Shown here: positions 6,633 through 62,904 of the stretch, one piece after another
Position numbering within the stretch: the first letter of the stretch is position 1
Layout: each line of letters opens with the position of its first letter
DNA from: Curtobacterium sp. MCBA15_012
Lineage (GTDB): Bacteria; Actinomycetota; Actinomycetes; Actinomycetales; Microbacteriaceae
DNA: 64,000 bases
Assembly: GCF_001864935.2 (NCBI RefSeq)
Contig: NZ_CP126267.1
Span: 1,364,001 to 1,428,000, forward strand
Direction of reading: 5' to 3'
Translations under genes and position numbers: made by a program
The notes under the pieces: generated by a model
What the model was told of the DNA's origin: nothing
Databases searched by the model: none
Seen by the model: only the letters and a program-made list of their open reading frames with translations

Positions 6633-6675
6633 GGCGGGGCTGCGGGGCGGCTTGGCGGCGGCCGCGGGGTCTCTC

Positions 6676-6735
6676 GCACAAGGGAAAGCAGCTCGCGCCA
6701 CGGAATCTCGTGGCGCGAGCTGCTTTCTGTTGTGC
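6676..6735. repeat. 60-bp palindromic element (type A), solitary copy 1
   Basis: This exactly 60-bp unit runs from GCACAAG to GTTGTGC. Its inner stem AAAGCAGCTCGCGCCACG pairs with its complement across a six-base loop. It lies in the gap after the DoxX-like gene and shares length, ends and core (TCGCGCCACG / CGTGGCGCGA) with the copies at 10559 and 31857-32700. No protein is encoded. Confidence 0.85.
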
Positions 6736-6841
6736 GGCGCGATCGGTGCTCGTTCCTGCACAGGGCGGTCAGCAGTCCGCGCTGTCCACAGGTTCGTGGG
6801 CGCGGCCACGACGGAGCGACCCGCCACGGGAGGCTCGTGGC

Positions 6842-7276: not shown

Positions 7277-7385
7277 GCGCGGTCATCGGACGCACTCGGG
7301 GGAAGGCATCGGTCTGGCGCTCACCCCGGCGGGCGCGGTCAGCCTCCGCTCGTGGGTCGGCGCACGTCCGGCCGTCAGCCCTGCT

Positions 7386-7482
7386 GACGCGCTCGGCGTC
7401 CGCTCGGGGGCCAGCCGTGCGGACGCGCTCGGCGTCCGCTCGGGAACCAGCCGTGCGGACGCGCTCGGCGTCCGCTCGGTGG
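7386..7482. repeat. 36-bp tandem repeat, three copies
   Basis: GACGCGCTCGGCGTCCGCTC starts at 7386, 7422 and 7458, an exact 36-bp period with drift in the CCAGCCGTGCG half. The array abuts the stop codon of the leftward lysozyme-like gene, so it forms that gene's 3' untranslated region. Confidence 0.85.
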
Positions 7483-8097
7483 TCAACCCTGCGGGGCGGT
7501 GTCCGGGACGGTCTGGCCGGTGAGGCCCTCGACGATGGTCTTCGCCTCGGGCCAGAACTTCGCGTAGTGGTCCGGGTCCGAGTTGATCTGCACGGCGTGC
7601 GCCATCTGCGTCGGCGTCATCGTCTTCCAGCCGGGCACCTTGACGAGCTTCGTGTAGAACATCGTCGCCGCCGTGTACGGGTCCATCCGCTGCTCGTAGG
7701 TGCCCCACGCGCCGTTGTCCCGCTGCTGGAACAGTCCGCGGCTGTCCGGACCGGCGGTGTCACCGTGGTCGAGGTTCACCAGGCTCGACTCACCGATCGC
7801 CGTCATCACCCCGACCGCCTGCGTGTGGGGGCCGATGCCCTGGGCCTGGGCGGCCTGGATCACGGATGCGGCGTTGACGAGTCGGTCCTGGCAGAACCCG
7901 GCGATCGGTCCGGCCGGCACCGCGATGCCGCCGACGGTCTTCGTCGGCACGTCCGGGCACGCCGGGGCTGCCTCGACGGACTTCGCTGCACCGGTGAGGG
8001 AGTGCACGGCGATGACGACCACGACGATCACACCGATCACGGCCGCCACGACGCCGGCGCCGAAGACCGAGGCGATCGTGATGCCAGCGCGGCGCAT
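7483..8097 (-). CDS. Secreted/anchored lysozyme-like (transglycosylase-type) protein
   Basis: The 204-residue protein has an N-terminal hydrophobic segment (residues about 6-33) that acts as a signal or anchor. A short Cys-containing linker (APACPDVP...GFCQDR) is followed by a lysozyme-like domain. AIGESSLVNLDHGD holds the candidate catalytic Glu. GPDSRGLFQQRDNGAWG and MDPYTAATMFYTKLVKVPGW match the actinobacterial SLT-like fold found in phage and conjugative cell-wall hydrolases. It probably cleaves peptidoglycan outside the membrane. The ATG start MRRAGITIAS is preceded by GAGAGGACC. It is not obviously co-transcribed with the permease operon, since a terminator-like hairpin lies between them. 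Confidence 0.78.
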   Translation of the reverse strand: MRRAGITIASVFGAGVVAAVIGVIVVVVIAVHSLTGAAKSVEAAPACPDVPTKTVGGIAVPAGPIAGFCQDRLVNAASVIQAAQAQGIGPHTQAVGVMTAIGESSLVNLDHGDTAGPDSRGLFQQRDNGAWGTYEQRMDPYTAATMFYTKLVKVPGWKTMTPTQMAHAVQINSDPDHYAKFWPEAKTIVEGLTGQTVPDTAPQG

Positions 8098-10509: not shown

Positions 10510-10558
10510 CGGTCCGACGCACCGCGCGCGGTGATCCCGTGCGGTGCGGCATGCTCGC

Positions 10559-10618
10559 GCACAACCGAAGGCACCTCGCACCACGGAAGGACGTGGCGCG
10601 AGGTGCTTCCCGTTGTGC
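10559..10618. repeat. 60-bp palindromic element (type A), solitary copy 2
   Basis: It runs from GCACAAC to GTTGTGC in exactly 60 bp, with GGCACCTCGCACCACG facing CGTGGCGCGAGGTGC. One mismatch lies within the inner stem. It sits between the convergent DUF6892-like and uracil-DNA glycosylase-like genes, where it could also terminate transcription. Confidence 0.85.
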
Positions 10619-10650
10619 GAAGCGCCCCCGCAGGTGCGCCCGGGGGTCAG

Positions 10651-28119: not shown

Positions 28120-28153
28120 CGGGGCGGGTGCGTCTCGCGTCCGCCGCTGCTGG

Positions 28154-28338
28154 GCGACACCGCCGCTGTCGGACGACAGCGGCGGTGTCGCATCATGCGC
28201 ACGCACCGACCGCCGGGCGCTGCGTGCGTCATCTCCGACGTCGTACGACAGCCGCGATGTCGCATCATGCGCGCGCACGAAAGCCCGAGCGGTGGAGGCG
28301 TCATCGTGGACGTCGTACGACAGCGGCGATGTCGTTCC
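28154..28338. repeat. 72-bp tandem repeat with 17-bp hairpin
   Basis: GTCGKACGACAGCSGCGRTG begins at 28168, 28240 and 28312, a strict 72-bp period with CGCATCATGCGC after the first two. In the first copy GCGACACCGCCGCTGTC (28154-28170) pairs perfectly with 28175-28191 around GGAC. It fills the 284-base gap between the convergent acyl-CoA dehydrogenase and patatin genes; no gene is seen there. Confidence 0.85.
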
Positions 28339-29300: not shown

Positions 29301-29352
29301 AGGACGGACGGGAGGATCGTGGCGGGCCCGCCACGATCCTCCCGTCCGTCCT
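29301..29352. repeat. 52-bp perfect palindrome with no loop
   Basis: Every base from 29301 to 29326 (AGGACGGACGGGAGGATCGT then GGCGGG) is complementary to 29327-29352. It lies between two leftward genes (oxidoreductase, then patatin), so it can end transcription of the first. The GGACGGGAGG arm is shared with the type B hairpins elsewhere. Confidence 0.95.
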
Positions 29353-31022: not shown

Positions 31023-31676
31023 ATGACCAACATCGTCGTCTTCGGCGGCACCGGCTACGCCGGCTCCGCCATCGTCCGCGAGGCCCTGTCCCGCGGGATC
31101 GCCGTCACCGCCGTCGCGCGCGACACCTCGAAGCTCGACGCCGCCGAGGGCCTGACCCTCGCGCAGGGCGACGCCTTCGACGCCGACTTCGTCGCGGACG
31201 TGACGAAGGGCGCCGACGTCGTCATCGTCTCGCTGCAGGCGGTCCAGGCCGACGGCAGCGAGCTCAAGGACAAGTTCCAGCACTTCGTCGACGCGGCCGC
31301 GGCTGCCGGCGCACGCCTCGGCATCGTCGGCGGCGCCGGCTCGCTGCTCGTCGCGGAGGGTGGCCCGGCGCTGGTCGACACCGCCGAGTTCCCGGACGAG
31401 GTCAAGCCGGAGGCGAAGAGCCACGGCAAGATCCTCGAGGGGCTGCGGTCGGGCGCCTACACGGGCGACGTCGACTGGTTCTACGTGAGCCCGGCGGCGG
31501 CGTTCGGCAGCTGGAACCCCGGCGAGCGGAAGGGCACCTACCGCACCACGGACGACCTGCTGCTCACCGACGCCGACGGCAACTCGGACATCTCCGGCGA
31601 GGACTACGCCATCGCGATCGTCGACGAGGTCGAGCGCCCGGCGCACCACCGCGCCCGCTTCGGCGTCGCGTACTGA
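31023..31676 (+). CDS. NAD(P)-binding oxidoreductase (NmrA/YwnB-like)
   Basis: The 217-residue atypical short-chain dehydrogenase starts MTNIVVFGGTGYAGSAIVREAL, with the G-x-x-G-x-x-G cofactor loop, and has WFYVSPAAAFGSWNPGERKGTYR, as in YwnB-like NAD(P)H-binding proteins. There is no Tyr-x-x-x-Lys catalytic pair, so it could be an epimerase-like, quinone-sensing or regulatory protein. GGAAGGAC precedes the ATG by six bases. It is divergent from and probably controlled by the HxlR regulator. Confidence 0.88.
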   Translation: MTNIVVFGGTGYAGSAIVREALSRGIAVTAVARDTSKLDAAEGLTLAQGDAFDADFVADVTKGADVVIVSLQAVQADGSELKDKFQHFVDAAAAAGARLGIVGGAGSLLVAEGGPALVDTAEFPDEVKPEAKSHGKILEGLRSGAYTGDVDWFYVSPAAAFGSWNPGERKGTYRTTDDLLLTDADGNSDISGEDYAIAIVDEVERPAHHRARFGVAY

Positions 31677-31727
31677 GGCACGGCGCGCCGCGGGAAACCG
31701 TGGCGCGCAGCGCCCGCGCACAGTCGA

Positions 31728-31767
31728 GAGCACGCCGCACCACGCATCAGCGTGGTGCGGCGTGCTC
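31728..31767. repeat. Diverged leading hairpin of the array
   Basis: GAGCACGCCGCACCACGC (31728-31745) pairs without mismatch with 31750-31767 across ATCA. The core (CGCACCACG) and flank (GCGCACAGTCG) look like a type A unit with changed stem sequence. It may double as the terminator of the NmrA-like gene. Confidence 0.85.
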
Positions 31768-31788
31768 TTCGTGGTCGGGCCGCCCCGT

Positions 31789-31836
31789 GTCGGCCGGGAG
31801 GCGCGTGGCGGCCTGGCCCCGCGCCTCCCGGCCGAC
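31789..31836. repeat. Type B hairpin, array copy 1
   Basis: GTCGGCCGGGAGGCGCG (31789-31805) pairs perfectly with 31820-31836 across a 14-base loop (TGGCGGCCTGGCCC). It is the longest intact B stem in the array; later copies at about 32007, 32206, 32395 and 32576 keep GGGAGGC/GCCTCCC and vary inside. Confidence 0.85.
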
Positions 31837-31856
31837 GTGTGGTGCGTGCTGCTCCC

Positions 31857-31916
31857 GCACAACGGGAGGCACGTCGCGCCACGTGATCCCGTGGTGCGAC
31901 GTGCCCGCGGTTGTGC
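31857..31916. repeat. 60-bp type A palindrome, array copy 1
   Basis: This unit runs from GCACAAC to GTTGTGC around GGCACGTCGCGCCACG and GTGGTGCGACGTGCC, with one G-T type mismatch in the inner stem. Confidence 0.9.
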
Positions 31917-32067
31917 GCCGCGCGCACGGCGGCTGCGCCGCGCCCGCTCGCGCGGCGGCTGCGCCGCGCCCGCTCGCGCGGCCGGTCGGTCCGTCCCGCG
32001 TCCGCCGGGAGGCGCGTGGCGGCCTGGCCCCGCGCCTCCCGTCCGCCGTGTGGTGCGTGCTGTTCCC

Positions 32068-32127
32068 GCACAACGGGAGGCACGTCGCGCCACGTGATTC
32101 CGTGGTGCGACGTGCTCCTGGTTGTGC
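32068..32127. repeat. 60-bp type A palindrome, array copy 2
   Basis: It has the same ends and length as copy 1; the loop is TGATTC and the right arm is CGTGGTGCGACGTGC. Confidence 0.9.
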
Positions 32128-32270
32128 GTCGTGTGCACGGCGGCTGCGCCGTGCCCGTTCGCGCGGCTGGTCGGTCCGCCCCGTGTCGGCCGGGAGGCGC
32201 GCGTCGGACGGGAGGCTCGTGGCGGCCCGGCCACGGGCCTCCCGTCCGCCGTGTGGTGCGTGCTGCTCCC

Positions 32271-32330
32271 GCACAACGCAAAGCACGTCGCGCCACGTGA
32301 TTCCGTGGCGCGACGTGCTTCCCGTTGTGC
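32271..32330. repeat. 60-bp type A palindrome, array copy 3 (best-paired form)
   Basis: Seven outer pairs (GCACAAC/GTTGTGC), a 3x3 internal loop, 17 perfect inner pairs (AAGCACGTCGCGCCACG with its complement) and a six-base loop TGATTC add up to 60 bp. It is identical to copy 5. Confidence 0.95.
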
Positions 32331-32455
32331 GCGGCGCGCACGGCGGCTGCGCCGTGCCCGTTCGCGCGGCCGGTCGGTCCGTCCCGCGTCCGCCGGGAGG
32401 CCCGTGGCGGCCCGGCCACGTGCCTCCCGTCCGACGTGTGGTGCGGGCTGCTGCC

Positions 32456-32515
32456 GCACAACGCAAAGCACGTCGCGCCACGTGATCCCGTGGTGCGACG
32501 TGCCTCCGCTTGTGC
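32456..32515. repeat. 60-bp type A palindrome, array copy 4
   Basis: It has the same plan; the right end reads CTTGTGC instead of GTTGTGC, and the right inner arm carries GGTGC in place of GGCGC. Confidence 0.9.
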
Positions 32516-32640
32516 GCCGCGCGCACGGCGGCTGCGCCGCGCCCGCTCGCGCGGCCGGTCGGGCCGCCGCGCGTCGGACGGGAGGCTCGTGGCGGCCCGG
32601 CCACGGGCCTCCCGGCCGACGTGTGGTGCGGGCTGCTCCC

Positions 32641-32700
32641 GCACAACGCAAAGCACGTCGCGCCACGTGATTCCGTGGCGCGACGTGCTTCCCGTTGTGC
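32641..32700. repeat. 60-bp type A palindrome, array copy 5
   Basis: It is identical to copy 3 over all 60 positions and lies nearest to the MFS transporter gene's stop, after a GC-rich 86-base stretch. Confidence 0.95.
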
Positions 32701-32786
32701 GCCCGCCCCGGCCAGCGCGACCGCGCGCGGCGATCGCGCCCGCGGCGCCGTGCCGCCCGCCGCGCGCGCCGCGACCGCGCGCCGCC

Positions 32787-34112
32787 CTACCGCTGCCCGA
32801 CGATCGCGGGCATCGGCAGGTGGTGGCGCATCCGCACGGCGAGGTGCAGACCGCCCCGCCGGGCGAGGACGAGCCCCACGACGACCGCCGCCGCTGCCGG
32901 GACGCCCCCGGCGACGACCATGCCGACGTGGGCGCCGAAGTGGTCCACGACCTGACCCATCAGCGGGCCGCCGATCGCCTGCCCGCCGAGCAGCACGAGG
33001 ACGTACAGCGACATCACTCGGCCGCGGATCGCCACGTTCGAGGACAACTGCACGAGCGAGTTCGAGGCGGTCATGAACAGCAGCTGCGACATCCCGACCG
33101 CGACGAGCGCGACCGTGAACGGCGCGATCACCGGGATCGAGCCGGACACCACGAGCAGGACCCCGGTCCAGAACACCCCGCCGACGATCGTGCGGAGCCG
33201 CACCACCGCTCGACGGGTCGACAGCAGCGCACCGACCAGGGCACCGACCGCGACGGCCGAGTTGAACGCGCCGTAGCCCGCGGCGCCGACGTCGTAGACC
33301 TTCGACGCGAACGCCGACAGCAGCACGGGCATGGTCAGGGCGAACACCGAGAAGAACACCATGAGCACGACGGGCACCAGGATGGTCGGCTTCCGCACGG
33401 CGTAGCGGAGCCCCTCGACGAGCTGTCCCTTCGTGCGGGGAGCCGGCGGTGTCCGGTGCAGTTCGGACACCCGCAGGAACCCGAGCGTCACCACCACGGC
33501 GACGCACGCGGTCGCGTTGACGCCGAACGACCACCCGGCCCCGACCGCGACGAGCAGGGCGCCGGAGAGCGCCGGCCCGATCATGCCGCCGAGCTGGAAC
33601 ACGCTCGAGTTGACGCTGATGGCGTTGCGGAGGTGCTGGTGCCCCACGATCTCGGTGACGAACACCTGGCGCGCGGGGTTGTCGATCACGGTCACCATGC
33701 CGACGAGGAACGCGATCACCCAGATGTGCCACGCCTCCACCACCCCGGTCAGGGTGAGCACGGCGAGCAGGGCGGACAGCACCGCGAACGCCCCCTGCGT
33801 GATCATCATCAGCGCACGCTTCGAGAACCGGTCGACGAGCACGCCGCCCCAGAGCCCGAAGAACAGCATCGGCGCGAACTGGCACGCGACCGTGATGCCG
33901 ACCTGCGCGACCGACCCGGTGAGCTGGAGCACGAGCCAGTCCTGCGCGATGCGCTGCATCCACCCCGCGGTCATCGCCACGAGGTTCGTCGCCGTGAACA
34001 GGCGGAAGTTCGGGACGGAGAGCGCGATGAGGGTGTGGCGCCACGGCGGCCGTTCGGCCTGGATCGGGAGGGGTTCGGTGGGGGGAGGGAGGGTCGTCGG
34101 TGACGCACTCAC
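32787..34112 (-). CDS. MFS exporter (EntS/MFS_3-like)
   Basis: The 441-residue protein has 12 predicted helices. WRHTLIALSVPNFRLFTATNLVAMTAGWMQRIAQDWLVLQLTGSV is the opening of the MFS_3/EntS-type exporters, and GGVLVDRFSKRALMM is the loop 2-3 motif A. This branch exports siderophores, macrolides or other small compounds; the substrate is unknown. The N-terminus is Pro-rich and cytoplasmic. The region upstream is a 44-bp tandem repeat ahead of the divergent LysR gene, so expression may be co-controlled. Confidence 0.88.
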   Translation of the reverse strand: MSASPTTLPPPTEPLPIQAERPPWRHTLIALSVPNFRLFTATNLVAMTAGWMQRIAQDWLVLQLTGSVAQVGITVACQFAPMLFFGLWGGVLVDRFSKRALMMITQGAFAVLSALLAVLTLTGVVEAWHIWVIAFLVGMVTVIDNPARQVFVTEIVGHQHLRNAISVNSSVFQLGGMIGPALSGALLVAVGAGWSFGVNATACVAVVVTLGFLRVSELHRTPPAPRTKGQLVEGLRYAVRKPTILVPVVLMVFFSVFALTMPVLLSAFASKVYDVGAAGYGAFNSAVAVGALVGALLSTRRAVVRLRTIVGGVFWTGVLLVVSGSIPVIAPFTVALVAVGMSQLLFMTASNSLVQLSSNVAIRGRVMSLYVLVLLGGQAIGGPLMGQVVDHFGAHVGMVVAGGVPAAAAVVVGLVLARRGGLHLAVRMRHHLPMPAIVGQR

Positions 34113-42001: not shown

Positions 42002-42870
42002 GACCGGACGCCGTCCGTCGTGCCGGCACCGACCGGGGCGGCCGTGACCGTGACGCGGGCCTCGCGGACGACGTCGTCCGGGGTGAGCGCGGCCAGCCGG
42101 TCGAGGAAGAGCGGCTGGAACGTGCCCGGACCGCCGGCGTCCCGGGCGGCGAGCTCGGCCGCGACCGTGTGCACCACGGTGGCCGCGACGGCGGCCGCGC
42201 CGGGGTCGTCCGGGGCGACCGCGGTGAAGGCGGCGACGACGGCGCCGAGGGCGCACCCGCCGCCCGTGATCCGCGTGAGCAGTTCCGTGCCGTTCGCGAC
42301 GCGCACCGTCCCGGTGCCGGGCGCGACCAGCAGGTCGACCGGACCCGACACGGCCAGCGCGCCCACGGTCCTCCCGTCCGACGCGGCGACGGCGGCCGCG
42401 AGCGCGTCGTCGGGGCCGACCGTGCTGTCCACGCCGCGCCCGCCGGCCGAGGCGCCGAGCACGGCGAGGACCTCGGAGGCGTTGCCGCGCAGCACCGTGG
42501 GACGGAGCGCGAGGAGCTCGCGGGCGAGCGCGGTGCGCACCGGGAGCGAGCCGACCGCGACCGGGTCGAGCACCCAGGGGGTGCCGGCGTCGACGGCGGC
42601 GGTGGCGGCCTCGACGGACGCGACCCGCGGCTCCGCGTGCGGCGTGCCCGTGTTCACGAGCAGGGCGTCCGCGACGCGGGCGAACGGCCCGGCCTCGGTC
42701 GGCACGTCGACCATCGCGGCCGAGGCGCCGAGCGCGAGCAGCACGTTCGCGGTCACGTTCTGCACCACCGTGTTCGTGATGCACTGCACGAGCGGTGCCC
42801 GGGCGCGGACGGCCTCGAGCAGTTCGGCGGTGCGGTGTGCCCAGGCAGGGGAGGGCGCAGCGTTCTCCAT
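41998..42870 (-). CDS. thiM: Hydroxyethylthiazole kinase ThiM
   Basis: The 290-residue ribokinase-fold enzyme phosphorylates hydroxyethylthiazole in thiamine salvage. [33 protein letters not shown] is the substrate-binding N-terminus; [15 protein letters not shown] and [16 protein letters not shown] carry the phosphate-binding and catalytic Cys/Gly residues. It is the first gene of the operon: the ATG lies three bases after the end of a TPP riboswitch whose sequence includes the Shine-Dalgarno-like GAAGGGAT. Downstream thiE overlaps by four bases. Confidence 0.95.
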
Positions 42871-42872
42871 GG

Positions 42873-42962
42873 ACGATCCCTTCGCGAGTACGAGCTCGAG
42901 CAGGTTCGACGGGTGTGATCTCAGCCGCCCGGTGGCGGCACCCCGTGTCTCGAGCGTCACCG
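42873..42962 (-). promoter_or_regulatory. TPP riboswitch (thi box)
   Basis: Read leftward, the sequence has the conserved elements in order: ACGGGGTGCC, GGCTGAGATCACACCC, GTCGAACCTG and GCGAAGGGATCG, with helices around them. These are the invariant pyrimidine- and pyrophosphate-sensing loops of THI elements. It ends at the thiM start and overlaps its ribosome site, so TPP binding most likely blocks translation initiation. Confidence 0.95.
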
Positions 42963-54508: not shown

Positions 54509-54643
54509 GAACGCGACCCGGGCGATCGAGGCGTCCCGGTGGTGAGCCGGGCGATCGAGGCGACCCGGTTGCGAGCCGAGCACCCGCGGTCGTGACCCGC
54601 CGTCGCAACGGAGGTCGTGCCTCCCGGACGCACCGTCGAGCGC

Positions 54644-55010
54644 GAGCGAGCAGGACGTGCCGCGTGCGCGTCGTCGCGTGGGCGGTCGACGTCGCTGCCG
54701 GGCCGCGAGCGTGACAGGAACGGCCCGTTCGGCTGAGGGCCGCCCCGCCCGTCGTCTGCCGTCGGGAAGGAGCGAGCGAGCGAGGGCGAGCGAGCAGGAC
54801 GTGCCGCGTGCGCGTCGTCGTGTGGGCGGTGCACGTCGCTGCCGGACCGCGAGCGTGACAGGAACGGCTCGTTCAGCTGGGCCCCGCCCGTCGTCCGCCG
54901 TCGGGCACGAGCGAGCACGACGTGCCGTGTGCGTGTCGTGCCGCGGGCGCGGTACGTCGCCCGCGGGCCGCGAGCGTGACGGAAGATGCCCGCTCGGCGC
55001 TGTCGACCGA
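54644..55010. repeat. Three degenerate ~120-145 bp repeats
   Basis: GAGCGAGCAGGACGTGCCGC begins at 54644 and 54788, and a changed form GAGCGAGCACGACGTGCCGT at 54909; each contains GGGCCGCGAGCGTGAC or GGACCGCGAGCGTGAC and is followed by GCCCGTCGTC. Similarity falls with distance. The frames across them are shadow reading frames; no gene is seen between the MerR gene and parA. Confidence 0.75.
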
Positions 55011-57109: not shown

Positions 57110-57262
57110 AGGCGCGGTGCCGGTCCCGGGACCGGCCGCCGGTCGTCCGCCTGACCGACCGCACGACCCGGTGCCGGCCCGGGACCGGCCGCCGGTCGTC
57201 CGCGGGACCGCCCGCGCGACCCGGTGCCGGTCCCGGGACCGGCCGCCGGTCGTGCTGGTGAC
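57110..57262. repeat. 53-54 bp tandem repeat, three copies, with CCCGGG palindromes
   Basis: CGGTGCCGG starts at 57115, 57169 and 57222. Each copy contains CGGTCCCGGGACCGG or CGGCCCGGGACCGG and GCCGCCGGTCGT. It lies in the gap after the 43-residue gene, with a strong hairpin next to it. Confidence 0.85.
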
Positions 57263-57265
57263 GGC

Positions 57266-57310
57266 CTGGAGGCCCGGTGCCGGCCCGACGGACCGGCACC
57301 GGGCCTCCAG
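57266..57310 (-). terminator. 18-bp perfect hairpin after the FadD15-like gene
   Basis: CTGGAGGCCCGGTGCCGG (57266-57283) pairs completely with 57293-57310 over a nine-base loop, 26 bases past the stop of the leftward ligase. It has the GGAGGC/GCCTCC ends of the type B family. Confidence 0.85.
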
Positions 57311-57336
57311 GCGGTCGCCCCGGCCCTGACGGGCCG

Positions 57337-62552: not shown

Positions 62553-62604
62553 ACGACGGACGGGAGGCGCGGTGCCAGCCGGCACCGCGCCTCCCGTCCG
62601 TCGT
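62553..62604 (+). terminator. 24-bp perfect hairpin after aroG (type B family)
   Basis: ACGACGGACGGGAGGCGCGG and the next bases (62553-62576) pair completely with 62581-62604 around an AGCC loop. It immediately follows the aroG stop and also faces the leftward pknL-like gene, so it can serve both strands. The 3' flank (CGTGTGGT) repeats the flank of array type B units. Confidence 0.9.
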
Positions 62605-62795: not shown

Positions 62796-62904
62796 CGCCG
62801 CACGGCGGCGCACCCGCGCCGCACGGCGGCGCACCCGCGCCGCACGGCGGCGCACCCGCGCCGCACGGCGGCGCACCCCGCGCCACACGGCGGCGCCCGA
62901 CGCC
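62796..62904. repeat. 21-bp tandem repeat, four copies and a fifth diverged
   Basis: GCACGGCGGCGCACCCGCGCC begins at 62800, 62821, 62842 and 62863, and a changed ACACGGCGGCG at 62885. It is the direct 3' flank of the pknL-like gene. Frames across it code Arg/Ala repeats and are not called. Confidence 0.9.

Follow-up and report, generated by a model that had tools for sequence, protein, structure and literature searches.

The locus studied here raises a simple question: what is an array of two alternating hairpins that fills a 1110-bp gap between convergent genes for an NAD(P)-binding protein and an MFS transporter, and is it peculiar to its spot? The array occupies positions 31677-32786 of the window, by which we mean the whole 64,000-nucleotide stretch of Curtobacterium DNA that was analysed. 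An earlier note, made from the letters of this window, had interpreted it as a composite unit grown by duplication and possibly mobile, an interpretation that is partly supported as a whole.

Architecture of the array

Five A palindromes (64 bp) alternate with five B palindromes (48 bp) between 31789 and 32702, and the A-to-A start steps are 211, 203, 185 and 185, so that the alternation and the spacing described earlier hold. The tandem repeat finder TRF scored the array at 865 and 875, and it far exceeds chance expectation. The features of the gap and its two flanking genes are as follows.

31023-31676, + strand: gene for an NAD(P)-binding (NmrA-like) protein, ending directly 5' of the array (PF13460, 5.1e-19; gene call)
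31678-31714, no strand: small hairpin 3' of the stop codon (fold -29 kcal/mol; weak R1 match)
31716-31778, no strand: leading A-like hairpin with a 19-bp perfect stem at 31727-31768 (R1 49.9 bits; fold)
31789-31836, no strand: B1 hairpin (R2 64.4 bits)
31855-31918, no strand: A1 palindrome (R1 79.6 bits)
31918-31982, no strand: 26-bp tandem duplication in the A1-B2 linker (TRF; linker comparison)
32000-32047, no strand: B2 hairpin (R2 52.8 bits)
32066-32129, no strand: A2 palindrome (R1 79.3 bits)
32185-32202, no strand: 18-bp partial copy of the B left arm (linker comparison; sequence)
32203-32250, no strand: B3 hairpin (R2 68.2 bits)
32269-32332, no strand: A3 palindrome, identical to A5 (R1 84.2 bits; sequence)
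32388-32435, no strand: B4 hairpin (R2 60.2 bits)
32454-32517, no strand: A4 palindrome (R1 73.9 bits)
32573-32620, no strand: B5 hairpin (R2 66.1 bits)
32639-32702, no strand: A5 palindrome (R1 84.2 bits)
32716-32783, no strand: GC-rich imperfect repeat between the array and the MFS stop codon (TRF; fold -42 kcal/mol)
32787-34112, - strand: gene for an MFS transporter (MFS_3), pointing at the array (PF05977, 3.4e-47; gene call)

The two longer steps are accounted for by the linkers: 211 is 185 plus 26 because of the 26-bp tandem duplication between A1 and B2, and 203 is 185 plus 18 because part of a B arm, 18 bp long, is present as an additional copy. A copies 3 and 5 are indeed identical: of the 77 nt compared, the first 70 are the same, and these span the whole element. 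Other details of the earlier description needed adjustment. A is present in five copies, as stated, with a measured length of 62-64 bp instead of 60 bp; the inner GTGGC/GCCAC stem of B is intact in B3-B5 and reads GTGGC/GCCCC in B1 and B2; and A and B are not the sole content of the region, which also holds the leading hairpin at 31716-31778 and the small one at 31678-31714. The letters of the leading hairpin are identical in a draft genome of the same species (G043). Predicted fold energies of the ten A and B copies range from -33 to -58 kcal/mol, and the stems form very stable predicted folds on both strands.

Genes were called with a codon-based caller trained on the 64-kb window and independent of any annotation. 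Long open frames cross the array, but the caller finds no gene between 31676 and 32787 and the steps of 211, 203 and 185 are not multiples of three, so we take the array to be non-coding, in agreement with the earlier reading. The five window units are 0.86-0.98 identical over 130 nt; a CRISPR array was rejected, the units being alike throughout, lacking unique spacers and flanked by the MFS and NAD(P)-binding genes, not by cas genes. The array sequence found no match among plasmid records. Rfam at gathering score gave no match in the array, its sole match in the window being a TPP riboswitch aptamer outside the array (42859-42955, minus strand, 56.9 bits).

Two hairpin families at gene ends

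Both A and B are dispersed hairpin families of the Curtobacterium genome, and the array is no isolated oddity. In the strain's own genome of 3.58 Mb, the 185-bp unit has at least 129 matches when both strands are counted (40 of 602 candidates scored), and a covariance model of A has at least 148 both-strand matches, at about 74 places (150 of 9252 candidates scored). We also took an unbiased sample of the genome, made up of 20 stretches of 20 kb at even spacing (400 kb, 11% of the total). It contained 30 B copies by strict criteria and nine places at which A scores over 60 bits; scaled up to the whole genome, these counts correspond to about 270 B and 80 A, and the two estimates together put A at about 74-80 places. 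As genome-wide families at gene ends, A and B were invisible to the earlier reader, who had the letters of the window alone. The window itself holds further copies outside the array, of A at 6674-6737 and 10557-10620 and of B at 29303-29350, 57260-57316 and 62555-62602.

By DNA similarity, A is present in 33 of 60 Curtobacterium genomes and absent in 27. B was found at E 1e-6 in at least three of 120 Microbacteriaceae genomes, all of them Curtobacterium (50 candidates scored per genome, with stricter filters), and weak matches to its model R2 occur outside the genus at two Frigoribacterium loci (L111, 4.9e-5; L112, 7e-4); B is not strictly confined to Curtobacterium. Long palindromes, mostly of other sequence, were found in 11 of 132 gaps of fourteen loci in sister genera, and the hairpin style may therefore extend beyond Curtobacterium. 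Frigoribacterium has long palindromes of its own (L108 9839, L125 9752, L108 1853 and L125 1857), some of which recur between records.

The placement of the hairpins is markedly uneven. Of the gaps in the 400-kb sample, long hairpins of any family occupy 30 of the 57 between convergent genes (9839 bp of gap in total), 22 of the 210 between same-direction genes (27354 bp) and 1 of the 61 between divergent genes (21733 bp); the same scan returned three further long hairpins inside genes and four that were unplaced. Ten dinucleotide shuffles of the 209 sample gaps of at least 60 bp yielded none, versus 53 observed. By motif, 33 of these 53 gap hairpins are A or B, 20 of them in convergent gaps and 13 in same-direction gaps, with none in divergent ones; the remaining 20 are different hairpins. 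The long hairpins of same-direction gaps lie closer to the upstream stop codon in 18 of 22 cases, and A/B hairpins occur also after single genes in such gaps. A second set, drawn from the window and from stretches selected for A and biased to that extent, comprises 61 A copies, the weak leading hairpin of the array counted as one, in 39 gaps: 25 convergent, 12 same-direction and 2 divergent, against background gaps of 54, 120 and 49. None of the 61 copies in the window and A-selected stretches falls inside a called gene.

Hairpins and the array gap in related genomes

Changes in the two arms tend to preserve their pairing. The covariation score of B is 0.173 versus 0.060 +- 0.010 in shuffles, none of 500 as high (21 pairs, 32 sequences), a score inflated by the picking of B rows with a pattern that requires both arms. 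For A the score is 0.128 versus 0.101 +- 0.006, again with none of 500 shuffles as high (29 pairs, 59 sequences), and two of the five measures applied to A showed no excess, namely pairs changed on both sides, for which 429 of the 500 shuffles reached the observed value, and pair types, for which 418 of the 500 did.

Comparison of single A sites between genomes extends this picture and shows a stronger effect. Near position 3348452, a hairpin is present in the called gap in 26 of 30 genomes and, when 280 nt 3' of the stop codon are scanned, in 29 of 30. Twenty-seven genomes, among them the strain's own and the same-species genome, entered the pairing test, one without a hairpin and two with odd-length centres having been dropped. 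Left arms are on average 0.488 identical between genomes; pairing is 0.912 with a hairpin's own arm and 0.600 with an arm swapped from another genome (highest of 500, 0.674). Because each hairpin is the best of its 280-nt stretch, own-arm pairing is high by construction and only the drop on swapping is informative. The families at this site include A variants with different middles and hairpins of the ACACCGGTGT, GGAACCAGGTTCC and CGCACCCCG types, and 15 of the 26 hairpin-bearing gaps carry no motif label. Near position 1134979, 27 of 30 genomes have no hairpin and two of the three that do belong to the strain's own species, so the hairpin is dispensable there and hairpins at one site are also gained or lost. 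Between species, hairpin shape thus persists while sequence changes at one tested site and is mostly absent at another. A has conserved letters at its outer and inner ends, which suggests that recognition may involve sequence in addition to shape.

What stands in the gap of the array in other species? We examined 57 MFS-related loci, 35 of which are other Curtobacterium loci with the NAD(P)-binding gene next to it, the same-species locus excluded. The gap measures 109-337 bp at these 35 loci, lengths that reach to the edge of the tblastn match (the stop codon of L122 was set by hand). A B hairpin is present in the gap at 25 of the 35, and an A-type hairpin with CGCACAAC ends was recognised by eye at six, all of which also have B. 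The A-B array is absent from all 35, and three loci (L084, L100 and L102) carry shorter repeats of their own kind. Across L070-L124, unlike palindrome families (ACACCGGTGT, GGAACCAGGTTCC, CGCACCCCG and others) were seen by eye in this gap in different species.

The number of units is five in the window and three in the same-species draft G043, in which unit 1 most resembles window unit 1 (0.96), unit 2 window unit 4 (0.95) and unit 3 window unit 3 (0.97). Since the only two N's of the G043 contig fall inside the array, its assembly may be collapsed there, and the difference in copy number from the related strain, present as it is, has to be read with that in mind. A copies have flanks that are on average 0.693 alike within clusters versus 0.406 between places, with two of seven clusters, L041 and one in L045, as exceptions (0.37 and 0.45). 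Shared flanks within arrays and the five units against three (in a draft possibly collapsed) both speak for the proposed growth by duplication of a composite unit. The strain's own genome has six more clusters of at least three A copies (L033, L040, L041, two in L045, and L051), and those in L045 are ordered A-A-B-A-B and A-B-A-B-A.

When the window and the sample are pooled, tandem arrays of any kind with a period of at least 30 occupy 12 of 72 gaps between convergent genes, 11 of 238 between same-direction genes and 1 of 76 between divergent genes; the 400-kb sample alone gives 6 of 57, 9 of 210 and 0 of 61, respectively. The gap of the array is thus not the only gene-end gap with tandem duplication. 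The suggestion of a recombination hot spot is plausible in the loose sense of a duplication hot spot, given arrays in 12 of 72 convergent versus 1 of 76 divergent gaps. The convergent gaps of the window with tandem arrays number 6 of 15 including the main array, and its five other arrays lie at 7376-7494, 28145-28334, 54637-54916, 57115-57320 and 62804-62877. The array is best read as a tandem amplification of a gene-end A-B pair.

Possible roles of the hairpins

We observe that A and B are dispersed, that they lie at gene ends, that changes in their arms preserve pairing and that related species have hairpins in the corresponding gap; a bidirectional transcript-end hairpin appears the most likely role of A and B. 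The fuller proposal, which we consider moderately probable, is that A and B are dispersed gene-end palindromes that end or protect the transcripts of facing genes, and that the array is a tandem-amplified, near-neutral A-B pair. Transcribed from either strand, A and B would form highly stable RNA hairpins by which the transcripts of the two facing genes would be terminated, as at an 'I-shaped' bidirectional terminator that lacks a U-tract, or shielded, as by a 3'-end stabiliser. An ancestral A-B pair would have stood in the gap, as at 6 of the 35 other Curtobacterium loci, and could have been duplicated in tandem by slippage or by unequal recombination between units. Because extra copies would change read-through little, the array is probably a near-neutral amplification and not a new device.

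The base profile 3' of 14 A and 39 B hairpin ends shows no T-run after the whole hairpins, and classical terminators with a U-tail were rejected for this reason; the outer 3' arm of A itself contains T's. The stems of A and B, at 21-29 bp, exceed the length that a terminator needs. A study of Streptomyces clavuligerus describes strongly stemmed transcript ends that lack a U-tract and likens them to I-shaped terminators or else to Rho-dependent ends (PMC8269248), and the missing T-run fits these structured, U-lacking ends better than it does classical terminators. Like I-shaped terminators, A and B place a strong GC hairpin shortly after the stop codon, have no U-tract after the stem and are symmetrical enough to serve both strands. 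Unlike them, members of A and B share sequence as repeat families and have stems of 21-29 bp, and their function is putative.

Could the hairpins instead be miniature mobile palindromes of the REP/BIME or MITE kind, moved by a transposase acting in trans and landing at gene ends, with the array as a BIME-like cluster? We consider this unlikely. Like REP and BIME elements, A and B are palindromes dispersed outside genes in high copy and in clusters, with a gene-end role proposed; B at E 1e-6 is confined to Curtobacterium among the 120 Microbacteriaceae genomes (at least three, 50 candidates each), and the low occupancy of the A site near 1134979 (3 of 30 genomes) would also suit movement. REPs measure 20-40 bp, carry at one end a GTAG or CGTC tag that stays unpaired (PMC3733652) and are tied to RAYT transposases (PMC2817692, PMC3733652). 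At 64 and 48 bp, A and B are longer; neither has a GTAG tag, and the GACG/CGTC at the two ends of B are paired. The Y1/RAYT domain was not found in the strain's own genome or in 60 Curtobacterium genomes in a search with PF01797 only, which was positive in 5 of 14 control genomes. Two REP-defining features, size with tag and the RAYT partner, thus fail for A and B.

ERIC, MITE and similar miniature palindromes are intergenic and without coding capacity. A and B resemble them in this; they differ, as far as a light test with PF01797 and at one locus goes, in that no partner transposase or target duplication was found. The marks of MITE insertion, a target-site duplication and an empty site, were sought at one locus, near 1134979, in 10 genomes whose gaps there are not alignable, and no clean empty site was seen. 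A search of G043 with A gave 129 both-strand matches, about 65 places; of these the best-scoring 20 were compared with the strain's own genome (G000), and 20 of 20 lie at places that also hold A there. Mobility of A is not supported at this short range, and, given these shared loci and a Y1 domain not found in the 60 genomes, neither is the earlier suggestion of a mobile non-coding unit.

Two further readings are possible. One attributes the symmetry of the arms to mutation and not to selection: template-switch repair of quasipalindromes would keep the arms matched, and near-neutral copies would survive in promoterless gaps. Templating of one arm by the other can yield compensatory changes, so those of A and B could have arisen in this way, and divergent gaps are poor in hairpins and tandem arrays alike, as this reading would have it. 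Promoter avoidance alone fails to explain why, for 18 of 22 hairpins in same-direction gaps, the stop codon of the upstream gene is the closer boundary, or why the gap near 3348452 keeps a hairpin in 26 of 30 genomes, and we hold purely mutational upkeep to be quite improbable.

The other reading, which we rate as having only a slim chance, holds that A and B are sites for protein binding or supercoil relief, of the gyrase or nucleoid-protein type, at convergent transcription, with the array as a stronger site. The strong convergent bias of the hairpins favours it, and so does the precedent of Escherichia coli, in which BIME-2 arrays bind gyrase, REPs there also aiding Rho-dependent termination (PMC2817692). 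Within one arm of the A consensus, moreover, the outer CGCACAACG and the inner CGCGCCACG agree at seven of nine letters, 19 bp apart. A fixed double-strand site would need neither covarying arms nor pairing kept between genomes (0.912 own versus 0.600 swapped). Also against this reading, in which positive supercoils would pile up at A and B places through convergent transcription, hairpins are found after single genes in same-direction gaps.

In Neisseria and Pasteurellaceae, paired DNA uptake signals serve as terminators. That A and B are of this kind is very improbable: they share with paired uptake signals the repeated arms set as inverted pairs and the enrichment in tail-to-tail gaps (PMC1852404), and some half-arms do lie outside an exact inverted pair (24 of 78 for B, 9 of 23 inner arms for A), but most are paired (54 of 78 and 14 of 23), several families exist in the genus, and the arms are concentrated in gaps and not scattered singly throughout genes, the B 10-mer GGACGGGAGG occurring, on both strands, 65 times in 58.7 kb of gaps versus 10 times in 319 kb of genes.

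We return to transcript-end hairpins as the preferred reading. If the hairpins do end transcription, about a third of the sampled convergent gaps (20 of 57 with A or B) would use two stock families, which, if true, would provide a rule for how transcripts end in actinobacteria of very high GC content. A broader and tentative proposal, to which we would give less than an even chance, is that Curtobacterium, and perhaps other Microbacteriaceae, possess a gene-end element set by place and shape and not by sequence: a palindrome of about 60 bp, with arms mostly of 25-33 bp and a loop of about 4, whose sequence family is swapped between species at the same site, which spreads without a REP transposase and whose symmetry is upheld by some further process, the array being such a pair in amplification. 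With unlike palindrome families at the same site across species and a REP-type Y1 transposase not found, the spread and symmetry of dispersed palindromes can be put to the test within a single genus for which many genomes exist, and the families to which the hairpins belong are of more interest than the array itself. Such repeats in Curtobacterium or Microbacteriaceae were not described in the best-ranked titles and abstract openings, which cover few subscription papers, and the word Curtobacterium is absent from the main text of PMC12306157.

Two minor observations concern additional repeats in the strain's own genome. Hairpins whose arms resemble GGATGGAGCAG form a third family, found at L129 14896, L140 10435, L141 8107 and L144 1088. 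Finally, an extra half-arm resembling GCGACGTGCT lies just outside several A copies (for example G000 1254233, 2855618 and 969156), so that a larger unit with alternative hairpins is possible.
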